Position numbers and translations under genes: made by a program
The notes under the pieces: generated by a model
Told to the model about the DNA's origin: nothing
The model's database searches: none
Seen by the model: only the letters and a program-made list of their open reading frames with translations
Source: a virus
Length of the DNA stretch: 26,623 bases
IMG/VR virus record: IMGVR_UViG_3300008107_000734
Location: 1 to 26,623 of that record
Direction: 5' to 3' (one strand)
Shown here: one piece after another, positions 12,889 to 23,948 of the stretch
How positions within the stretch are numbered: position 1 is the first letter of the stretch
Layout: every line of letters begins with the position of its first letter

Positions 12889-13824
12889 ATGTCCAGAGCC
12901 ACAGCCCGCGGCTACCGCGTGGCCTTTCTCGCTGAAGTGACGCAGGGCACGACGCCTGTGACCGCCCCCACGCTGCTCCGCACGACCGGCGGCGGGATGT
13001 CCGTGGCGGCTTCCTCGGTCGAGTCCGAAGAAGTCCAGCTGGTCGAAGTGCCGGACGTGATCCGCACGAACGTCGAGGGGACCGGCACGATCAACTTCGA
13101 ATACAGCTACGGCGGCATCCATCCGCTGCTCGAAGGGCTGTTCGCCTCCACCTGGACGACCAACGTGCTGCGTGTCGGCTCCACGCTCCGCACGTTCACG
13201 ATCGAAGACCAGTTCACCGACATCTCGCGGTTCCTCACCGCCCGCGGCTGCATCATCGAGTCGATCTCGATCACGTTGCAGCAGGGCAGCAAGATCACGG
13301 GGACGATCACCTACCGGGCGCTGACCCCGCCGACGGCGTTCGCCACGGCCACGGTGTTCGGCGCGGCGCCCACCGCGGCGCCCACGAACCCGATCATGTC
13401 GCCGGTCGGCAGCGTGCAGCTGATCCAGGAAGCGGGGTCGCTGAACCTCGGCCCCGCGGGCATCGGCACGCTCGGCATGACGATCAACATGACCCGTCAG
13501 GGCATCGCCATGCCGCAGGTCGGCACCACGGCGCTGGCCGGTCTGGATCAGGGCACGTTCGTGTGTACGGGCACGCTTTCGCTGTATGTGCCGATTGGCG
13601 CGACGTCCATCATCGACAAGTACCTGAGCGACACGAGCACCCAGCTCGCCCTGACGCTCGGCGGCGCGTCCACGCTGCGCGATGCCTACCTGTTCTCGAA
13701 CGTGAAGTTCACGGAAGGCGGGATTGGCGAGATGAGCCGGAACAGTCCTGCCAACCTGAACCTCAGCTGGCAGGCGCTCGCCTCCTCGCCGAACACGACC
13801 GTTCAGATCACGCGCACGCCGTAA
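12889..13824 (+). CDS. Major tail (tail tube) protein
   Basis: This 311-aa protein is the probable tail tube subunit. It is beta-rich and low in charge. The N-terminal part (RGYRVAFLAEVTQGTTPVTAPTLLRTTGGGMSVA, then a S-E-E-V-Q segment and GTINFEYSYGGIHPLLEGLF) and the closing L-N-L-S-W-Q-A-L plus QITRTP follow the pattern of siphophage tail tube proteins of the ~300-aa two-lobed type. GAGG upstream at 12878-12881 supports ATG 12889. The gene is followed by a strong hairpin and then by the tail assembly chaperone pair, the standard position. Its subunits stack as rings around the tape measure. Confidence 0.85.
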   Translation: MSRATARGYRVAFLAEVTQGTTPVTAPTLLRTTGGGMSVAASSVESEEVQLVEVPDVIRTNVEGTGTINFEYSYGGIHPLLEGLFASTWTTNVLRVGSTLRTFTIEDQFTDISRFLTARGCIIESISITLQQGSKITGTITYRALTPPTAFATATVFGAAPTAAPTNPIMSPVGSVQLIQEAGSLNLGPAGIGTLGMTINMTRQGIAMPQVGTTALAGLDQGTFVCTGTLSLYVPIGATSIIDKYLSDTSTQLALTLGGASTLRDAYLFSNVKFTEGGIGEMSRNSPANLNLSWQALASSPNTTVQITRTP

Positions 13825-13872: not shown

Positions 13873-14379
13873 ATGGCCAAGATCGGAACACTGCGCCTCA
13901 AGCAGCAGGCGGAAGCGGGCGCGACCATGGTGGTGCGCGACGCGTTCGGCGAGCGCGACGAGGATGGGGAACTGCCGGCGCTCCTTGCGGCGGATGGCTC
14001 GCCCGCGACGTTGACACTCCTCGGCGCCGATAGCGACACCGCCAAGCGCCTCGACTACCAGCGGCAGGCGGCCGCGCAGACGCGCGTCGTGGCCACGATG
14101 TTCGGCGCGAAGAAGAAGTCGGCGACCGTCACGGCGGAAGACATCGCCGACCAAGCGGCGTTCGACTTGGAGAAGCTCGTCACCCTCACGGTCGGCTGGC
14201 ATGGCTTCGAGGATGAGGAGGGGGTCGCCATCCCCTTCTCCGCCGACGCCGTCCGCGACCTCTACGCGCAGAACGCCTTCGTCCGTGAGCAGGCCATGGC
14301 GTTCGTGGGTGACCGTCAGCGTTTTTTCGCCCGATCCTCGACGCCTTCCGCCGATTCGTTGACCACCACTTCGCCGTAG
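13873..14379 (+). CDS. Tail assembly chaperone, short (zero-frame) product
   Basis: This 168-aa protein occupies the lambda gpG position between tail tube and tape measure. It starts MAKIGTLRLKQQAEAGATMVV, is mixed in structure, and contains VAIPFSADAVRDLYAQNAFVREQAMAFVGDRQRFF near the end, a helix typical of G-type chaperones. Beyond the TTT TTC codons at 14323-14328 the zero frame adds only 16 low-complexity residues (Ser/Thr-rich) before TAG at 14377-14379. That fits a frame vestigial after the slip site. There is no strong Shine-Dalgarno, only GAG a few bases upstream. It should coat the tape measure protein during tail assembly. Confidence 0.8.
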   Translation: MAKIGTLRLKQQAEAGATMVVRDAFGERDEDGELPALLAADGSPATLTLLGADSDTAKRLDYQRQAAAQTRVVATMFGAKKKSATVTAEDIADQAAFDLEKLVTLTVGWHGFEDEEGVAIPFSADAVRDLYAQNAFVREQAMAFVGDRQRFFARSSTPSADSLTTTSP

Positions 14380-14714
14380 CCGAGCGACGCGAGCAGATGG
14401 CGTCCATGGCCTTGGTGCAGCCGGAGGTGATGGACGCCGTGGTGGACGAGTTGGTCGGTCCACCGATGCCGCCGCTCGCGGAACGGGCGTGGGACGTGTT
14501 CGGTCAACTGAGCGGCACCCGGGCGAGCGGCATGGGGGGCGTCGGCGCGATCACCTACACGGAGATGGATGCCTACCAGCGCCTGACGGGGACGACGCTG
14601 ACCGCCCTTGATGTTGCCCTCGTCCGCGAAGCCGACGCCGCGTTCCTGTCCTACGCATACCGCAAGCTGAAAGCCGCGGGCACCCGCGACGACGACGACT
14701 CTCCGGAGGACTGA
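13873..14714 (+). CDS. Tail assembly chaperone, -1 frameshift fusion product (gpGT-type)
   Basis: A slip of -1 at TTTTTTC (14322-14328) joins the first 152 codons of the short chaperone to the frame that runs from 14328 to the TGA at 14712-14714. The result is about 280 aa. The -1 frame is open right across the junction, reading ...QRFF then RPILDAFRRFVDHHFAVAERR and on to MASMALVQPEV. The added T-like part is 128 aa, mostly helical and acidic at its end (RDDDDSPED). Read alone, the second frame has ATG 14397, but this has no good Shine-Dalgarno, so fusion is the likelier expression. Known G/GT systems use this fusion to bridge tail tube and tape measure. Slip frequency cannot be judged here. 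Confidence 0.8.
14322..14328 (+). promoter_or_regulatory. Programmed -1 ribosomal frameshift slippery site
   Basis: The heptamer T TTT TTC is in the correct X XXY YYZ phase for the zero frame (codons TTT at 14323, TTC at 14326). After a one-base backward slip the codons are TTT TTT and the anticodons can re-pair. It lies 49 bases before the zero-frame stop. I saw no strong downstream hairpin or convincing internal Shine-Dalgarno stimulator. Confidence 0.8.
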
Positions 14715-17700
14715 TGGCCCGCGTAGCACGACTGGGAGTGGTGATTGATTCGTCCGGCGCGAAGCGGGGGGCGGATGAGACGAATACGGCGCTGAACGGC
14801 ATGTCGTCGACGGCGCTCCGTGCACAGCGGGCCATCGTGCAAGCCATGTCCGCGATCGGCGCCGCCATGGGCATTCGTGAAGTGGTGCAGCTGGCCGATT
14901 CGTGGACGCGGCTTGAGGGGCGCCTCAAGACCGTGACCACCTCGGCCGCAGAACTGGCCACCGTGCAGCGCCAGCTGGTGGCCGTCGCGAACACGACGCG
15001 GACGGGGATCGAGGAGACCATTACGCTCTACACGCGGCTGGCGCGGACCGCGGGCGAGCTGGGCATGTCGCAGTCGGATGTCGTGCGCCTCACCGACCTG
15101 ACCGCGAAGACGCTGGTGGTCTCCGGCACGTCCGCAACGCAAGCCTCCGGCGCCTTGCTCCAGTTCTCGCAGGCGCTGGGCGGCGGCGTCGTGCGCGCGG
15201 AAGAGTTCAACAGCATCCTCGAAGGCACGCCCGTCATCGTGCAGGAAGTCGCCAAGTCGATGGGGCTGACGGTTGCTGAACTGCGCCGGCTGGTGATCGC
15301 GGGGGAAGTCACCTCGCAGCAGTTCGCCGAGGCGTTCCTTGACGCGACCGGGCGCATCAACGACAGCTTTTCGGAGCTCGGCCCGACGGTCGAAGGGGCG
15401 CTGACGCAGCTGTCCAATGCGTTCGCGGAAGCAATCGGCCGGGGGAATGCGGCCGGGGGCGCTACGCAGGAGCTGGCCGCCGCCATCATCGAACTGGCGG
15501 CCATGATCCGCGAGAACCAGGCGACGTTCGACGCGATGGGCGAAGCGCTGGCCACCATGCTGCGCTGGGGCACCGCGGCGGCGGACGCGTTCATCAAGGC
15601 CGGGGACGCGGTCGACCGTCTCGGGGATTACATCGCCGGGGCGGCCAAGGCGACCGAGGGCCTTGCCAACTTCGACACGAAGGCGTGGACCGAAGGCATC
15701 ACGATGATGACCAAGGCCAACGCCGAGTATGAGGAGTCCGTCCGCCGGGTGGGGCGTGCGTTGGTCACGACCCGGAAGGAAGCCTCTGGCATGTCATCCG
15801 AAGGCGCGGCGTTCATGCGCAACCTCACCGGCGGGGGCATGGGCGGCTCACTGAGCGCCACCCCGTTCGGTATGATGGGCGGGCTTGGTGGGGGCGCTGC
15901 CGCCGCGTCGCGTGCCCGTGTCGCGCCGGCGGCCAAGGCGGACGCCGACGCCATGCGGGACGCCGCACGCGCCGCCAAGGAGCTGCAGGAGGCCCTCGAT
16001 AAGACCGCCTTCAGCAGCGGGCTGGCGCGTGAGCGCGCCCTCGAAAACGCCAACGCCCTCCGCCAGTTCGTGCAGCCGGTGAAGCTCACGTTCGCCGAAG
16101 TCATGAACCTGATCCAGGCGCAGGAGCGCGCGGCGAACGTGGCCGAAGCGCACGCGGCGGCCGTGCGGCTGGGGATTGCCGACACCATCGCATACAAGGC
16201 GGAGGTGATGACCGCGGCGCAGGTGGAAGACCTGCGGGCGCAAGGGATCAGCCTGACCACGGAGCAGTTGGAGCGACTGGCCGAGGCGAACCGCCGCGTG
16301 GTGGCGGCGCAGAGTGAAGGCGGGTCCTCCCCTGTCGCCGCGACCGAAGACTGGGCCAACTCGATCCGTGACCTCATCGGCGTCGTGCAGCTGCTGGGGC
16401 AAGCGTTCGGCGATGTCGGCCGAACCGTGTCCGGCATCGGCACCGGGGCACAGAGCATCGTGTCGGGGCTGCAGCGGGCGAGCCAGATCAAGAACGCGCA
16501 AGGGCAGGCCGTGGGGATCGGTGGGGCGCTGAGTGGCGCCGCCGGGGTGGCGGGTGTTGTCTCCGGGCTTGGCGCAGCCGGGGCGGTGGTCGGTGGCCTG
16601 GTCCAGATCGGCGACGCGCTTGACGTGTTCGGGCGGAAGGCCAAGGAGCGGGCGCGCGAAATCGCGGAAGCGACGAAGCGGTTCAACGAAGGGATTGCCG
16701 AGTTCCGCACACAGGCGCTTGGGCAGGGGTCCGGCGTCGGCAGCGCTATTCAGCAGGCGTCTCGCGAGTTGCAGGCGCTCATCGCCGAAGCGCAGAAGGC
16801 GTTCCGTGGCAGCGCCCTCAACCGCGAGACGTCCCGCGTGCAGGGATTGTACGACGCCACGCTCGACCGCATCGCCGGCGACTTCTTCACCTCGATCGAG
16901 GACGCGTTCGACCGCCTGAACGGCAACGAGCTGGCGATCAATATCCGGCGCGCTGGGGAAGAACTGCGCGAGCGCGAGAACGCCATCATGGCGCTTCGGA
17001 AGTCGGGCGCGATCACGGCGGAAGAGGAAGCCGCCGCGCTGGTGCGGATCAAGGACCTGTACGACCAGACCGTGGCGAGCATGGAAGCGGCCGCGGCAGC
17101 GGCAGCCGCGGCGGCGGATGCCGAACGAAAGCGCAGGGAAGAAGAGCAAGCCCGCGCCCGCACCGCCTTCGGCCTCGACCTCACCCAGCGCCGGCAGACG
17201 CTGAACGGGGACAGCCGGGGGGCGTTCATCACGGGCCAGACGATCGCGAACAACGCGGCGCTGGCGTCGGCGCAGGAACTGGTCGAAGCGGGCACGATCA
17301 CCCAACAGATGTTTGATGACCTGAAGGTGCTGCTGGGCGATGAACTGGTCGCCGCGCTCAAGGCGTTCGACGAGGCCGCCGCGGAAGCCAAAGTCCAGAC
17401 CATGGAGGACCTCGAAGTCCGGGCGCTGGTGGCGCAGGGCCGCACCGCGGAAGCCGAGCAGCGGCGGATCGAGATCGCCAACCGGCGGGAACTGCTGGGC
17501 GTCACAGACGAGGCGACCCGCGCCGAGATCCTTCGCGTGCAGGCGATCGAGGAAGCGGGGCGGATCGCCGCGGCCGCCGCTGAGGCGGAGCGCGTGCGGC
17601 AGGAGCAGAACGCCGACATCGATCGGCGGTTGATCGACGTGTATAAGATCCTCGACCCGGCCAAGGCCAAGGAACTCGAGCAGCGCCAGAAGGAGATCGA

Positions 17701-18340
17701 CCGCACGAACGAACTGAAAAACGCGGCCGACGATGCGACCCGGGCGCGGCTACAGGAGCTCTACGCCATGGAGGACGCGGCCGAGGCGGCGGTGAAGCTG
17801 GCGAAGGCTCAGGAGGAACAAGCCCGCATCGCCGAAGAGCTGGCGAGCTTCACGAGCTCCCTCAACGTCCAGTACCTCCGCAGCCAGGGGCGCGGGTTCG
17901 ACGCGGACGTGGCGGAGCTCGACGAGTGGCGCACGGAGCAGCGGAAGCGGGCCAGTTCTATCGGCGCGGGCCCGGACGCGTTCGCGCAGATCGACGCCAT
18001 CTACGCCAGTCGGTACAACGACCTCGTGAAGCGCTCCATGGGCATGAACGACCCGATCCAAACGCCGGAGCTGACGCCGTCACAGACGGACTCCACAGTC
18101 CTCGGTGAGGAAACCATCGCGGTGCGCAGTGCGCGCTCGATCACCGAATCCACCGCCCTGCAGCTGGTGGACTACTCGGCCTCGCAGCTGGCCGTACAGC
18201 GGGAGATTCTTGCCGAGATCCGTGGTCGACGCAGTGAAGGCGGGGCTCTCCTCGCCTCGCCCTCCCTCGACCTCATGGAGCGCCAGCTCGGCCAGCGGGC
18301 GAACACGGCAGCCATGCTGCTCGGCGGGAGTGTGCGGTGA
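14714..18340 (+). CDS. Tape measure protein
   Basis: This 1208-aa protein is the tail tape measure, which sets tail length and is ejected ahead of DNA. The N-terminal ~230 residues match the common phage tape measure domain (ELADSWTRLEGRLKTVT-like pattern, then QFSQALGGGVVRAEEFNSILEGTPVIVQ). A long helical body contains a glycine/alanine-rich hydrophobic stretch at about residues 602-636 (membrane-insertion candidate), an Ala run with charged heptads near 793-815, and repeated Glu/Arg/Ala coiled coils to about 1060. No peptidase or lysozyme motif was recognised. At roughly 0.15 nm per residue, the general rule, tail length would be near 180 nm (inference). SD GGAGGA at 14705-14710; ATG in a TGATG overlap with the fusion frame stop. 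Confidence 0.92.
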   Translation: MARVARLGVVIDSSGAKRGADETNTALNGMSSTALRAQRAIVQAMSAIGAAMGIREVVQLADSWTRLEGRLKTVTTSAAELATVQRQLVAVANTTRTGIEETITLYTRLARTAGELGMSQSDVVRLTDLTAKTLVVSGTSATQASGALLQFSQALGGGVVRAEEFNSILEGTPVIVQEVAKSMGLTVAELRRLVIAGEVTSQQFAEAFLDATGRINDSFSELGPTVEGALTQLSNAFAEAIGRGNAAGGATQELAAAIIELAAMIRENQATFDAMGEALATMLRWGTAAADAFIKAGDAVDRLGDYIAGAAKATEGLANFDTKAWTEGITMMTKANAEYEESVRRVGRALVTTRKEASGMSSEGAAFMRNLTGGGMGGSLSATPFGMMGGLGGGAAAASRARVAPAAKADADAMRDAARAAKELQEALDKTAFSSGLARERALENANALRQFVQPVKLTFAEVMNLIQAQERAANVAEAHAAAVRLGIADTIAYKAEVMTAAQVEDLRAQGISLTTEQLERLAEANRRVVAAQSEGGSSPVAATEDWANSIRDLIGVVQLLGQAFGDVGRTVSGIGTGAQSIVSGLQRASQIKNAQGQAVGIGGALSGAAGVAGVVSGLGAAGAVVGGLVQIGDALDVFGRKAKERAREIAEATKRFNEGIAEFRTQALGQGSGVGSAIQQASRELQALIAEAQKAFRGSALNRETSRVQGLYDATLDRIAGDFFTSIEDAFDRLNGNELAINIRRAGEELRERENAIMALRKSGAITAEEEAAALVRIKDLYDQTVASMEAAAAAAAAAADAERKRREEEQARARTAFGLDLTQRRQTLNGDSRGAFITGQTIANNAALASAQELVEAGTITQQMFDDLKVLLGDELVAALKAFDEAAAEAKVQTMEDLEVRALVAQGRTAEAEQRRIEIANRRELLGVTDEATRAEILRVQAIEEAGRIAAAAAEAERVRQEQNADIDRRLIDVYKILDPAKAKELEQRQKEIDRTNELKNAADDATRARLQELYAMEDAAEAAVKLAKAQEEQARIAEELASFTSSLNVQYLRSQGRGFDADVAELDEWRTEQRKRASSIGAGPDAFAQIDAIYASRYNDLVKRSMGMNDPIQTPELTPSQTDSTVLGEETIAVRSARSITESTALQLVDYSASQLAVQREILAEIRGRRSEGGALLASPSLDLMERQLGQRANTAAMLLGGSVR

Positions 18341-21300
18341 ACGTCACCCTCTGGACCGACTACAGCGCGGCCGGTGGCCAGCGGCTCGGGACGCTGGTGC
18401 TCGTGGAGGGGACAGAACGCACCCGCCTCGACGGGAACGAAACCACCACGCTGACCGTCGGCCGGCAGCGGTGGCTCGACCTCGGCGGCGACGTGCGCAT
18501 GGTGGTGCGGGTGGTGTGGCCCGACGGGTCGATCGTCGAGCGGCGCATTTCGCAGGTGGAGACCACGGACACCAGTCCGACCACGGACCTTACCCTCACG
18601 CCCGTCTTTGCCGATCTCGCCAGCGGCGGGCCCATCCTGCGCGTAGTGGCCGGTCGGGTGGCGACGCGCGTGGCGGGGGAGCTCGATGTGGTCACGGCGC
18701 TGGCCACGTATGTCGTGCCCCACAGCGCGGCGACGCGGCTGGGGATGGTGCTCGGCGAGGTGGAAAAGAACCCCGTCGTGCAGTTCGAGCTGGATGCGCC
18801 AACGCCTGCGGCCTTCCTTCTCGACCTGTTCGACAAGGCGAAGTTGGAGATGGAGATCGTCCGCACCAGCGACACGGTGTGGACGCTGCACGGCCGGGCG
18901 CGGCGGGGCAGCACGGTGCCGGCCCTGCGCATCACGGAGGCGCGGAACCAAGCCCGTCTGGCTCTCGCGGTAGACGAACAGCAGCTGGCCACGGTGGTGG
19001 TCCCGTTCGGGGATGCGGACAGCAACGGCGACCGGGCGACCATCGCCACGGCGCGGTGGCAGGTGGCGGGTGTATTGGCCGGTGGGTGGGTCCAACTCCG
19101 CGACCCGGACAATGCCAGCCGCACGCCGATTCTGGTCGACACGCAGTGGCAGGGCGCGTACGTGCGGGACCGCAGCGGCGTCAACGAGCAGATCCTGAAC
19201 TCGCGGGCCAGCGACGGCGCGGTACAACTGGCGAGCACGACGGGGCTGGGCATCGGCTCGCGCGTCTTCCTCGCGTCCGACCCGGCGGGGACGCCGCTGG
19301 TCGAGGTGTACGACGCGTCGGCGGTCGGATCGCGGCGGCGCGTGGTGCCCCTGACGTTGTCCGGAGTCCGCGGCGACGCCAACGAGATCCGCAACGGCCG
19401 CTTTGCCGACGGCCTCACCGACTGGGGCGCGGCCAACCCTACGACCCCGCCGTCGTTCGTCGAGATCCCGCGCAGTGAGCTGGGGGTGACGCGCAATGCC
19501 CAAGCGGATGGAGCGCGGGCAGCGAACATCGGGACCGGCACGCCATTCGCCGTGAAGGGGTTGCCCGCGAACAGCTTCGTGCGCCAGTGGGCCGAACTGC
19601 GCGTGGGTGGGGCGACCTTGCAGGTCAGTGCGGACGCGATCCCGGATATTGGCGGCGGGTTGACGCTGAGCGTGACTCCCGGCCTGCCCGGTGCCTACGT
19701 CGACGACACGCCCTTCACCCTGATCCGCCGAGAACAGCGCACGCTGCTGCTCGACGGGGCGCAGTCGGTGCTCCTCACGCGGCTGCGCTTTCAGGACTCG
19801 AACACCGATGGGCTGCTCGTCGGGCTGTCGGGGACGGTGACCGCCGCCGTCGGGGGATGGGTGTCGTTCCCGCTCACGCTCAGATACGCGACGCCGGGCG
19901 TGCAGGCGGGGGCACTGGTCATGGAGCAGCCGAACCTGACCGTGCCGGCGCTGAGCACCCTGCCGCTGTTTTTCAACGTGCAAAGCGCGACGGTTCCGAC
20001 ACCCACCGGCGCGACGACGGCCACGCTGCCATTCGGCGGGTCCAGCAGCGCCATCACCGTCGGCACCACGCGCCTGCGGTATCGCTTTACCAACAACGAA
20101 CTGTGCGTCTGCCGCGTGACGGCCAACAGCGGCGGGATCCTGACGCTCGAACTTGAATCGCACGCCGCATTTAACACACCGAACCCGACGTTCAGCGGCG
20201 GATTCTACCAGTACGAGGCCAGCGACCAAGTGCTCGCCAACGGCTCGACGTGGACGCTCGACATCACGCGCGAGACGCGCACGCTGCGGTGCAACGGCCC
20301 GCAGACGGCAGGCGCCCTCTCGGTCCCGTTCAAGGCGCAGACGAACATCACCACCCGGAACTGGGGGAGCGGGGATACCATTTCGCTCAATCGCGCGCTG
20401 AGTGCGACGCTGGCGCTGACGGGGGTCACGTCATACACGCCGTCGCCGGACGGCAATACGCTCGTCGTCACCTACGACGCGGCCACGAGCACCATGGACG
20501 ATCTCACCACCCCGGCCGACTGGGGCTTCGGCGACGTGTGGTTCGATTTCGGGAGCGGCGGCACGTTCCGGCTCGACAGCATTGGCGGAGGGACGGCGAG
20601 CTTCGCGGGCAGCGGCGGCAGCCCTACCACCCCGCAGACCGCCACAGCGAGCTGGGCGAAGGTCGACACGTACGCGCTGACGGGCAGTGCGTCGTGGGGC
20701 GCCAATGGGCGGGTGACGCTGAATCTAGCGTCACCTGTCCCTACCGGCCGCAGCTACGCGCGGGGGCTGCCCGTCAACGCCAACTGGGTGACGGGCGCCA
20801 TGCGACTGCACGTGGCGCTGAGCGCGGGGGCGACGAGTGTGCAACTCGCTGGCGTCGACTTCTTCGTGACGGGCAGCGACCCGGCGGCGTCCCTCCGCGG
20901 CGCGGTGTACCGCATTCCAGCGACCGTTTCCACCATCCCGATCCCAGGCAACACGCTGTATGCGGAGTCGACCACACAAGCCAACGGGAGCGGCGTAGCC
21001 TCCATCCCCCTCGTCGCGGCCAACCCCAACGCCATCGCCAACAACGAGGCGGTGACAATCGTCACGCCGCAAATGCTGCGGCCCTCCGACCCCACCACCG
21101 GGAGCGTGGTGCGGCTCACGAGTGCGGCGGGTGGCGGGTCGCATCCGAGCATCTCGGTCCTTACCACGCTGACCGGCGTGCCCGTGACCGTGCCGGCAGG
21201 CACCACCGTGCCGGTCACCGTCTTCGTGACGCTGTCGCTGAGCGCTGGCAGCTACTCGTTGTCCAGTCAACCAAGCGTCGCGCTCGTGGACGGCGCGGGC

Positions 21301-21804
21301 ACGGTGCTGCAGACGGGCGGCATCGCAAGCACCAACGTCACGGTGGCCCAGACGCCCACGATCGTGCGCGTGATTCTGCAGCGGACGCTGACCGAGTCCG
21401 CCACGCTCTTCGTGCGCATGGCCGGTCGCAACAACGACCGGGCCAGATGGATCACCCCGCTCGACGCCATGCTGGTGATCGGCGCCGATGACGACGTCCC
21501 GTTCGTCGCCGGCTCCTGGGCCAACGAACTCGCCATCCGGGGGGCGGAAGAACTCGCGGCCCGCCGCGACCCGGCGGTGGCGGTAACGCTCGACCTCGCC
21601 ACGCTGCGCCGCTGGTCGGATGCGCCAGATGGTGCGCCGGTGGTGGTCGGACAGACGGTGCAGCTGCCGGCCCTTGGGCTCACCCGGCGCGTGCTGACCA
21701 TCGACCGCAGCCTCACCGATCCCGACCGCGTGCGGGTCGAGGTGGGCGTGCAAACGGACCAGCTGACCACACAGGTCGGCCAACTTCTCTCGGGGGCGTC
21801 GTGA
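18337..21804 (+). CDS. Large tail tip/hub protein with long internal beta-rich insertion
   Basis: This 1155-aa protein starts at GTG 18337 in a GTGA overlap with the tape measure gene. Residues ~1-290 read like the N-terminal hub part of siphophage tail-associated proteins (SIVERRISQVETTDTSP, then PAAFLLDLFDKAKLEMEIV and NQARLALAVDEQQLATVVVPFG). The last ~95 residues (WANELAIRGAEELAARRDPAV, then LPALGLTRRVLTIDRSLTDPDRVRVEVG) look like the closing hub segment of the same fold. Between them lie about 700 residues of Thr/Ser/Gly-rich beta sequence. It includes NGRFADGLTDWGAAN near residue 353, a pattern common in carbohydrate-binding jelly-roll modules. It probably sits at the tail tip and may bind the cell surface. 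Exact domain borders are uncertain. Confidence 0.65.
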   Translation: MNVTLWTDYSAAGGQRLGTLVLVEGTERTRLDGNETTTLTVGRQRWLDLGGDVRMVVRVVWPDGSIVERRISQVETTDTSPTTDLTLTPVFADLASGGPILRVVAGRVATRVAGELDVVTALATYVVPHSAATRLGMVLGEVEKNPVVQFELDAPTPAAFLLDLFDKAKLEMEIVRTSDTVWTLHGRARRGSTVPALRITEARNQARLALAVDEQQLATVVVPFGDADSNGDRATIATARWQVAGVLAGGWVQLRDPDNASRTPILVDTQWQGAYVRDRSGVNEQILNSRASDGAVQLASTTGLGIGSRVFLASDPAGTPLVEVYDASAVGSRRRVVPLTLSGVRGDANEIRNGRFADGLTDWGAANPTTPPSFVEIPRSELGVTRNAQADGARAANIGTGTPFAVKGLPANSFVRQWAELRVGGATLQVSADAIPDIGGGLTLSVTPGLPGAYVDDTPFTLIRREQRTLLLDGAQSVLLTRLRFQDSNTDGLLVGLSGTVTAAVGGWVSFPLTLRYATPGVQAGALVMEQPNLTVPALSTLPLFFNVQSATVPTPTGATTATLPFGGSSSAITVGTTRLRYRFTNNELCVCRVTANSGGILTLELESHAAFNTPNPTFSGGFYQYEASDQVLANGSTWTLDITRETRTLRCNGPQTAGALSVPFKAQTNITTRNWGSGDTISLNRALSATLALTGVTSYTPSPDGNTLVVTYDAATSTMDDLTTPADWGFGDVWFDFGSGGTFRLDSIGGGTASFAGSGGSPTTPQTATASWAKVDTYALTGSASWGANGRVTLNLASPVPTGRSYARGLPVNANWVTGAMRLHVALSAGATSVQLAGVDFFVTGSDPAASLRGAVYRIPATVSTIPIPGNTLYAESTTQANGSGVASIPLVAANPNAIANNEAVTIVTPQMLRPSDPTTGSVVRLTSAAGGGSHPSISVLTTLTGVPVTVPAGTTVPVTVFVTLSLSAGSYSLSSQPSVALVDGAGTVLQTGGIASTNVTVAQTPTIVRVILQRTLTESATLFVRMAGRNNDRARWITPLDAMLVIGADDDVPFVAGSWANELAIRGAEELAARRDPAVAVTLDLATLRRWSDAPDGAPVVVGQTVQLPALGLTRRVLTIDRSLTDPDRVRVEVGVQTDQLTTQVGQLLSGAS

Positions 21805-23320: not shown

Positions 23321-23610
23321 TGAGCACCCGAGTCCTGCAGGGGGTGGTCATCTCCACCACGCGCCCCACGCTCTCCCGCCTCGCGTTCCGCTGGCGCTAC
23401 ACGTTGGCCGAGCAGGTCGCGATTGAGGTGGCAGAGGAATCCCACGCCGACGCCACCGTCCGCGCGACGCTGCGCATTCTCCGGCAGTCACTGGCCGAAG
23501 CGTCCGACATCGACCCGACCGACCCGCGCACCGTGGAAGGCGTGCAGTATCACGCGGCGCTGGGCCTCATCGCCCCCGAGCGTGTCGCGCAGATTCTGGC
23601 GCCGGCATGA
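23320..23610 (+). CDS. Small helical tail-region protein, unknown
   Basis: This 96-aa protein is not recognised. It starts with a strand-like segment (RVLQGVVISTTRPTLSRLAFRWRYTL) and then is helical and acidic, with VEGVQYHAALGLIAPERVAQIL near the end. The open frame runs far upstream but that part is shadow of the LamG-like gene; ATG 23320 in a TAATG overlap is the sensible start. It is coupled by 4 nt to the DUF1353 gene. No function is proposed beyond membership of the tail operon. Confidence 0.7.
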   Translation: MSTRVLQGVVISTTRPTLSRLAFRWRYTLAEQVAIEVAEESHADATVRATLRILRQSLAEASDIDPTDPRTVEGVQYHAALGLIAPERVAQILAPA

Positions 23611-23948
23611 CCTTGTACTCTCCCATCCGGCTCGAGTTCCTCGACGGGCCACTCGTGATGGTGATCGACCCGATCGACTGGCGCGGGCCCTATCCGGAGG
23701 TGGTGCCGCGTGGCTTCATCTCTGACGGCGGCAGCAAGCCCTCCCTCACGTGGCCGTTCGTCGGCCATCCGCTCAGCAGGCGGGTGTTGATCTGTTACCT
23801 GCTCCACGATCTGGATCTGGCGCGGGAGGTCTCGTGGACAACGGCGACTGTTCGCTTCGATGCGCGATTGCGCGCGGTCGGCTGCCCGGATGCACGGCGA
23901 TGGGCGATGGTGGCGGCCGTGCGACTGCGCGGCTGGATGAGAGCGTAG
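23607..23948 (+). CDS. DUF1353 family phage protein
   Basis: This 113-aa protein matches DUF1353, a small phage family often between tail and lysis genes. The signature is VPRGFISDGGSKPSLTWPFVG at about residues 34-54 followed by a helix with LICYLLHDLDLA (the H-D of the family at 67-68). The function of DUF1353 is not established. The gene is the last of the tail operon; its stop overlaps the start of the second leader element, which precedes the lysis genes. Confidence 0.8.
   Translation: MTLYSPIRLEFLDGPLVMVIDPIDWRGPYPEVVPRGFISDGGSKPSLTWPFVGHPLSRRVLICYLLHDLDLAREVSWTTATVRFDARLRAVGCPDARRWAMVAAVRLRGWMRA

Follow-up and report, generated by a model that had tools for sequence, protein, structure and literature searches.

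What is made from the two overlapping reading frames that lie between the tail tube gene and the tape measure gene of this phage: two separate proteins, or a short protein together with a longer one that runs from the first frame into the second? The window, i.e., the whole 26,623-nucleotide stretch analysed, is a separate 26.6-kb virus record with terminase, portal, head, and tail genes. The neighbours of the two frames are recognizable by family. The upstream gene (12889..13824, + strand) encodes a tail tube protein (Pfam PF18906 Phage_tube_2, 2e-24; PHROG 290, 4e-40), and the downstream gene (14714..18340, + strand) encodes a tape measure protein (Pfam PF20155 TMP_3, 3.7e-60; NCBIfam TIGR02675). 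The products of both frames between them fall in tail assembly chaperone families. The first frame (13873..14379, + strand; 168 aa), called G-like here, matches PHROG 313 (Tail assembly chaperone, 4.5e-11), and relatives of it are known from other contigs. The T-like extension in the -1 frame (14328..14714, + strand; 128 aa after the slip) is conserved in that frame in relatives and matches Pfam PF23812 (Phage_TAC_18, 7.3e-14) with 52.1 bits, above the 27-bit gathering cut-off; the family model itself is silent on frameshifting. Along the DNA the genes follow one another as tail tube, G, T, and tape measure. When the two pieces are joined into a fusion of 280 aa, the fusion matches PHROG 15027, a further tail assembly chaperone family, weakly (5.7e-4) over residues 28-258, a range that spans the junction, and this family was not among the matches of either the G-like or the T-like piece searched singly.

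Two other proteins of the tail region may be mentioned here. One, encoded at 23607-23948 among the late tail genes and far from the G/T pair, is a second protein with a match to a tail assembly chaperone family (PHROG 1158, 8e-12). The other, of 1155 aa (18337-21804), has no Pfam match and a marginal match to PHROG.

The frame that begins with ATG at 13873 ends with TAG at 14377-14379. It contains the heptamer TTTTTTC (14322..14328, + strand) in exactly the phase of a slippery site, X_XXY_YYZ, the codons around it being CAG CGT TTT TTC GCC (Q R F F A). From 14328, the -1 frame reads CGC CCG ATC CTC (R P I L) and stays open to TGA at 14712-14714, which overlaps the ATG of the tape measure gene at 14714 (TGATG), so a slip back by one base is predicted to give a fusion of 152 + 128 aa. 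Since the -1 frame is closed by a stop only 5 codons ahead of the heptamer, the two frames overlap only briefly. The original prediction had described two tail chaperone frames, placed between genes for tail tube and tape measure, with T TTT TTC in exact slippery phase and a -1 frame open through 14714 to give a fusion of about 280 aa, and all of this stands.

How much should be made of the heptamer? It occurs once in the window, considering both strands, at 14322-14328 only. By itself the string is unremarkable, as 25 of 100 dinucleotide shuffles of the window have at least one TTTTTTC, and because a quarter of the shuffles contain it by chance, its weight must rest on its phase, its place, and its conservation. 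What is remarkable is the choice of codons, given the bias against TTT in this genome (GC = 69%). Phenylalanine is encoded by TTT in just 19 of 165 cases (11.5%), NNT codons make up 7.4% of those for arginine, and TTC TTC encodes five of the seven Phe-Phe pairs. Judging from the codon usage of the genome, the sequence Arg-Phe-Phe would be encoded as CGT TTT TTC with a probability of about 0.0075.

A comparison of homologous loci had been proposed as a check, and it was made with a close-relative set of 10 related viral contigs (6 or 7 distinct sequences). TTTTTTC is found in the same phase in all of the close relatives (L003/L004, L005, L006, L007-L009, L010, L011/L012, and L032), and both heptamer and phase are invariant down to 43-59% identity. 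The most distant of those that keep the heptamer, L032, is 59% identical to the window in G and 43% identical in T. Single-base errors are common in runs of T, and one might therefore suppose that a sequencing error, or else a real frameshift mutation, has split what was a single gene. The same arrangement, however, is present in at least seven independent contigs (6 distinct sequences) as well as in isolated phages of Vibrio and Acinetobacter. This refutes an origin by error or mutation, whose probability can be regarded as negligible.

The variation among the close relatives also bears on which frame is read past the heptamer. Upstream, 16 of the 33 variable columns are at zero-frame third positions, while downstream 11 of 23 are at -1-frame third positions, a switch in the expected direction but from few columns and borderline when taken alone (Fisher p = 0.053). 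Counted pairwise (counts that are not independent), 73 of 133 differences are at -1-frame third positions. Relatives conserve, in the -1 frame, the first 15 residues past the slip (RPxLDAFRxFVxHHF), and in the window no start codon was found in that frame ahead of 14397. Since the 15 conserved residues precede any start codon there, independent initiation cannot explain the conservation of the -1 frame. Perhaps T is nonetheless translated separately, with no fusion made, by ribosomes that reinitiate past the stop of G at ATG 14397 or at some later start. The distance from that stop (14377) to ATG 14397, 17 nt, is inside the range for reinitiation, but no Shine-Dalgarno sequence is found ahead of 14397 (CGAGCGACGCGAGCAG), and the first start in the -1 frame varies in relatives (ATG at +69, TTG at +90, ATG at +99), coming in any case after the conserved residues. 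Moreover, with a separate start for T, the heptamer would have no reason to be invariant. Separate translation of T is accordingly judged very unlikely.

The second frame stands at -1 to the first in remote phage relatives too, and annotated records of relatives enter each frame as a hypothetical protein in its own right. At the end of G, TTTTTTC is found in phase in Vibrio phages 230E39-1 and 1.151.O (L014 and L055) and also in L037, and AAATTTC or AAATTTT is found there, likewise in phase, in many others (L013, L033, L038-L040, L042, L048, L050, L051, and L058-L061). These latter sites help to decide what it is that slips. Transcriptional slippage also happens on nucleotide runs, and the six T's could in principle lead RNA polymerase, rather than the ribosome, to produce a shifted message. 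Six is a short run for RNA polymerase slippage, however, and in the many relatives with AAATTTC/T the long run is absent while the ability of tandem tRNAs to re-pair is kept. Slippage by the polymerase seems to us even less probable than a separate start for T.

No canonical heptamer was found at the end of G in six remote relatives (L036, L047, L049, and L052-L054). In all six of these, G ends NNT TTT A and T is kept in the -1 frame. Such an end would suit the slip of a single tRNA on T_TTT.

Two kinds of possible stimulator were considered, a local stem downstream of the heptamer and Shine-Dalgarno-like pairing upstream. A stem of 6-7 bp (CUCGACG...CGUCGAG) lies 8-9 nt past it in the window and relatives. 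In the window this potential stem (14338..14362, + strand; 9 nt 3' of the heptamer) is weak (-4.8 kcal/mol), and 90% of synonymous shuffles give folding as good or better. The same is true for at least two thirds of the synonymous-codon shuffles of every sequence considered, and no sequence has a local stem that beats its shuffles. The stem follows from the conserved codons of LDAF..FVE, and as a stimulator it is not supported. Nor is an upstream Shine-Dalgarno-like stimulator, the pairing being weak and not conserved across the sequences examined. A stimulatory RNA element is not required in all members of the G/GT type.

That the two products belong to chaperone families, that the genes stand in this order, and that relatives conserve the heptamer along with its phase and the -1 relation all favor the original reading of the locus, namely programmed -1 ribosomal frameshifting as in lambda G/GT, which would make both G and a GT of 280 aa. 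We would give this a probability of roughly 0.93, on the strength of sequence comparison. Against it count the six remote relatives in which no canonical heptamer was found and the failure to find a convincing stimulatory structure or a conserved Shine-Dalgarno-like element. By this reading, most ribosomes would translate 13873-14379 to yield the short chaperone G, and a fraction, on reaching CGT TTT TTC, would move back by one base, the two tRNA-Phe in the P and A sites re-pairing on TTT TTT. The slipped ribosomes would then continue to 14714 and produce the GT fusion. What is seen directly is the anatomy of the sequence, its phase, and its conservation; slippage in this phage, its efficiency, the ratio of the products, and their roles are inferred. 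On the model of lambda, G would serve as a coat for the tape measure protein, and GT, through its T part, would bring in the tail tube protein; GT made in a low, constant proportion would connect these two proteins.

The likeness to lambda lies in how the genes are arranged (tail tube, G, GT, tape measure), in a -1 shift close to where G ends, and in a T that is open up to the tape measure gene. The slip sites differ, TTTTTTC here and GGGAAAG in lambda, and the protein sequences are unrelated at the level tested. The roles of the lambda chaperones G and GT have been reviewed (PMC5009743). A T-run slip site with a -1 shift at the position of a tail chaperone is shared with the E / E+E' genes of P2 and with P2-like prophages (PMC3931495). 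P2 uses T6G, xanthomonad P2-like prophages related to Smp131 use T7C, and T7G is also among the P2-like sites (PMC3931495). P2 differs in having a contractile tail, in T6G where the window has T6C, and in its protein families. The original remark that TTTTTTC with no obvious hairpin is a less common version holds as regards the hairpin, the best local stem being no better than synonymous-codon shuffles. One qualification is that T-run sites such as T6G and T7C are nothing unusual among tail genes.

The site in the window is best taken as a new member of the known group of G/GT frameshifts, ordinary in kind. T-run slip sites in tail genes were known already. The principle of the frameshift is established, and the general view of it is unchanged. 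What is provided is correct gene calls for the tail chaperone pair in an uncultivated group of GC-rich phages, together with slip sites from one protein family that can be compared with each other. A more speculative idea, which we consider rather doubtful, is that the heptamer works without a cis stimulator in this GC-rich phage and that slip sites across the family change type, from tandem (T_TTT_TTC, A_AAT_TTY) to single-codon (T_TTT_A) and back, with the -1 frame kept, in which case the type may set the ratio of G to GT.

The surroundings of T differ in some phages. In Vibrio phages L047 (2425-2703) and L049 (2428-2748), a gene on the opposite strand separates the T frame from the tape measure gene, and the same is seen in Rhizobium phage RHph_N28_2 (L053, 2184-2468). 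The distant G alignment (A3) varied too much to be used for scanning genomes; when genomes were scanned with the T alignment, two alphaproteobacterial matches came up in other gene contexts, and these were not counted as evidence. Also, in L034, L041, and L044-L046, which were left out of the comparison for want of a G partner in place, alphaproteobacterial or viral contigs carry a T frame resembling Phage_TAC_18 with no overlapping G. These partnerless frames sit after other tail genes or after the tape measure gene.
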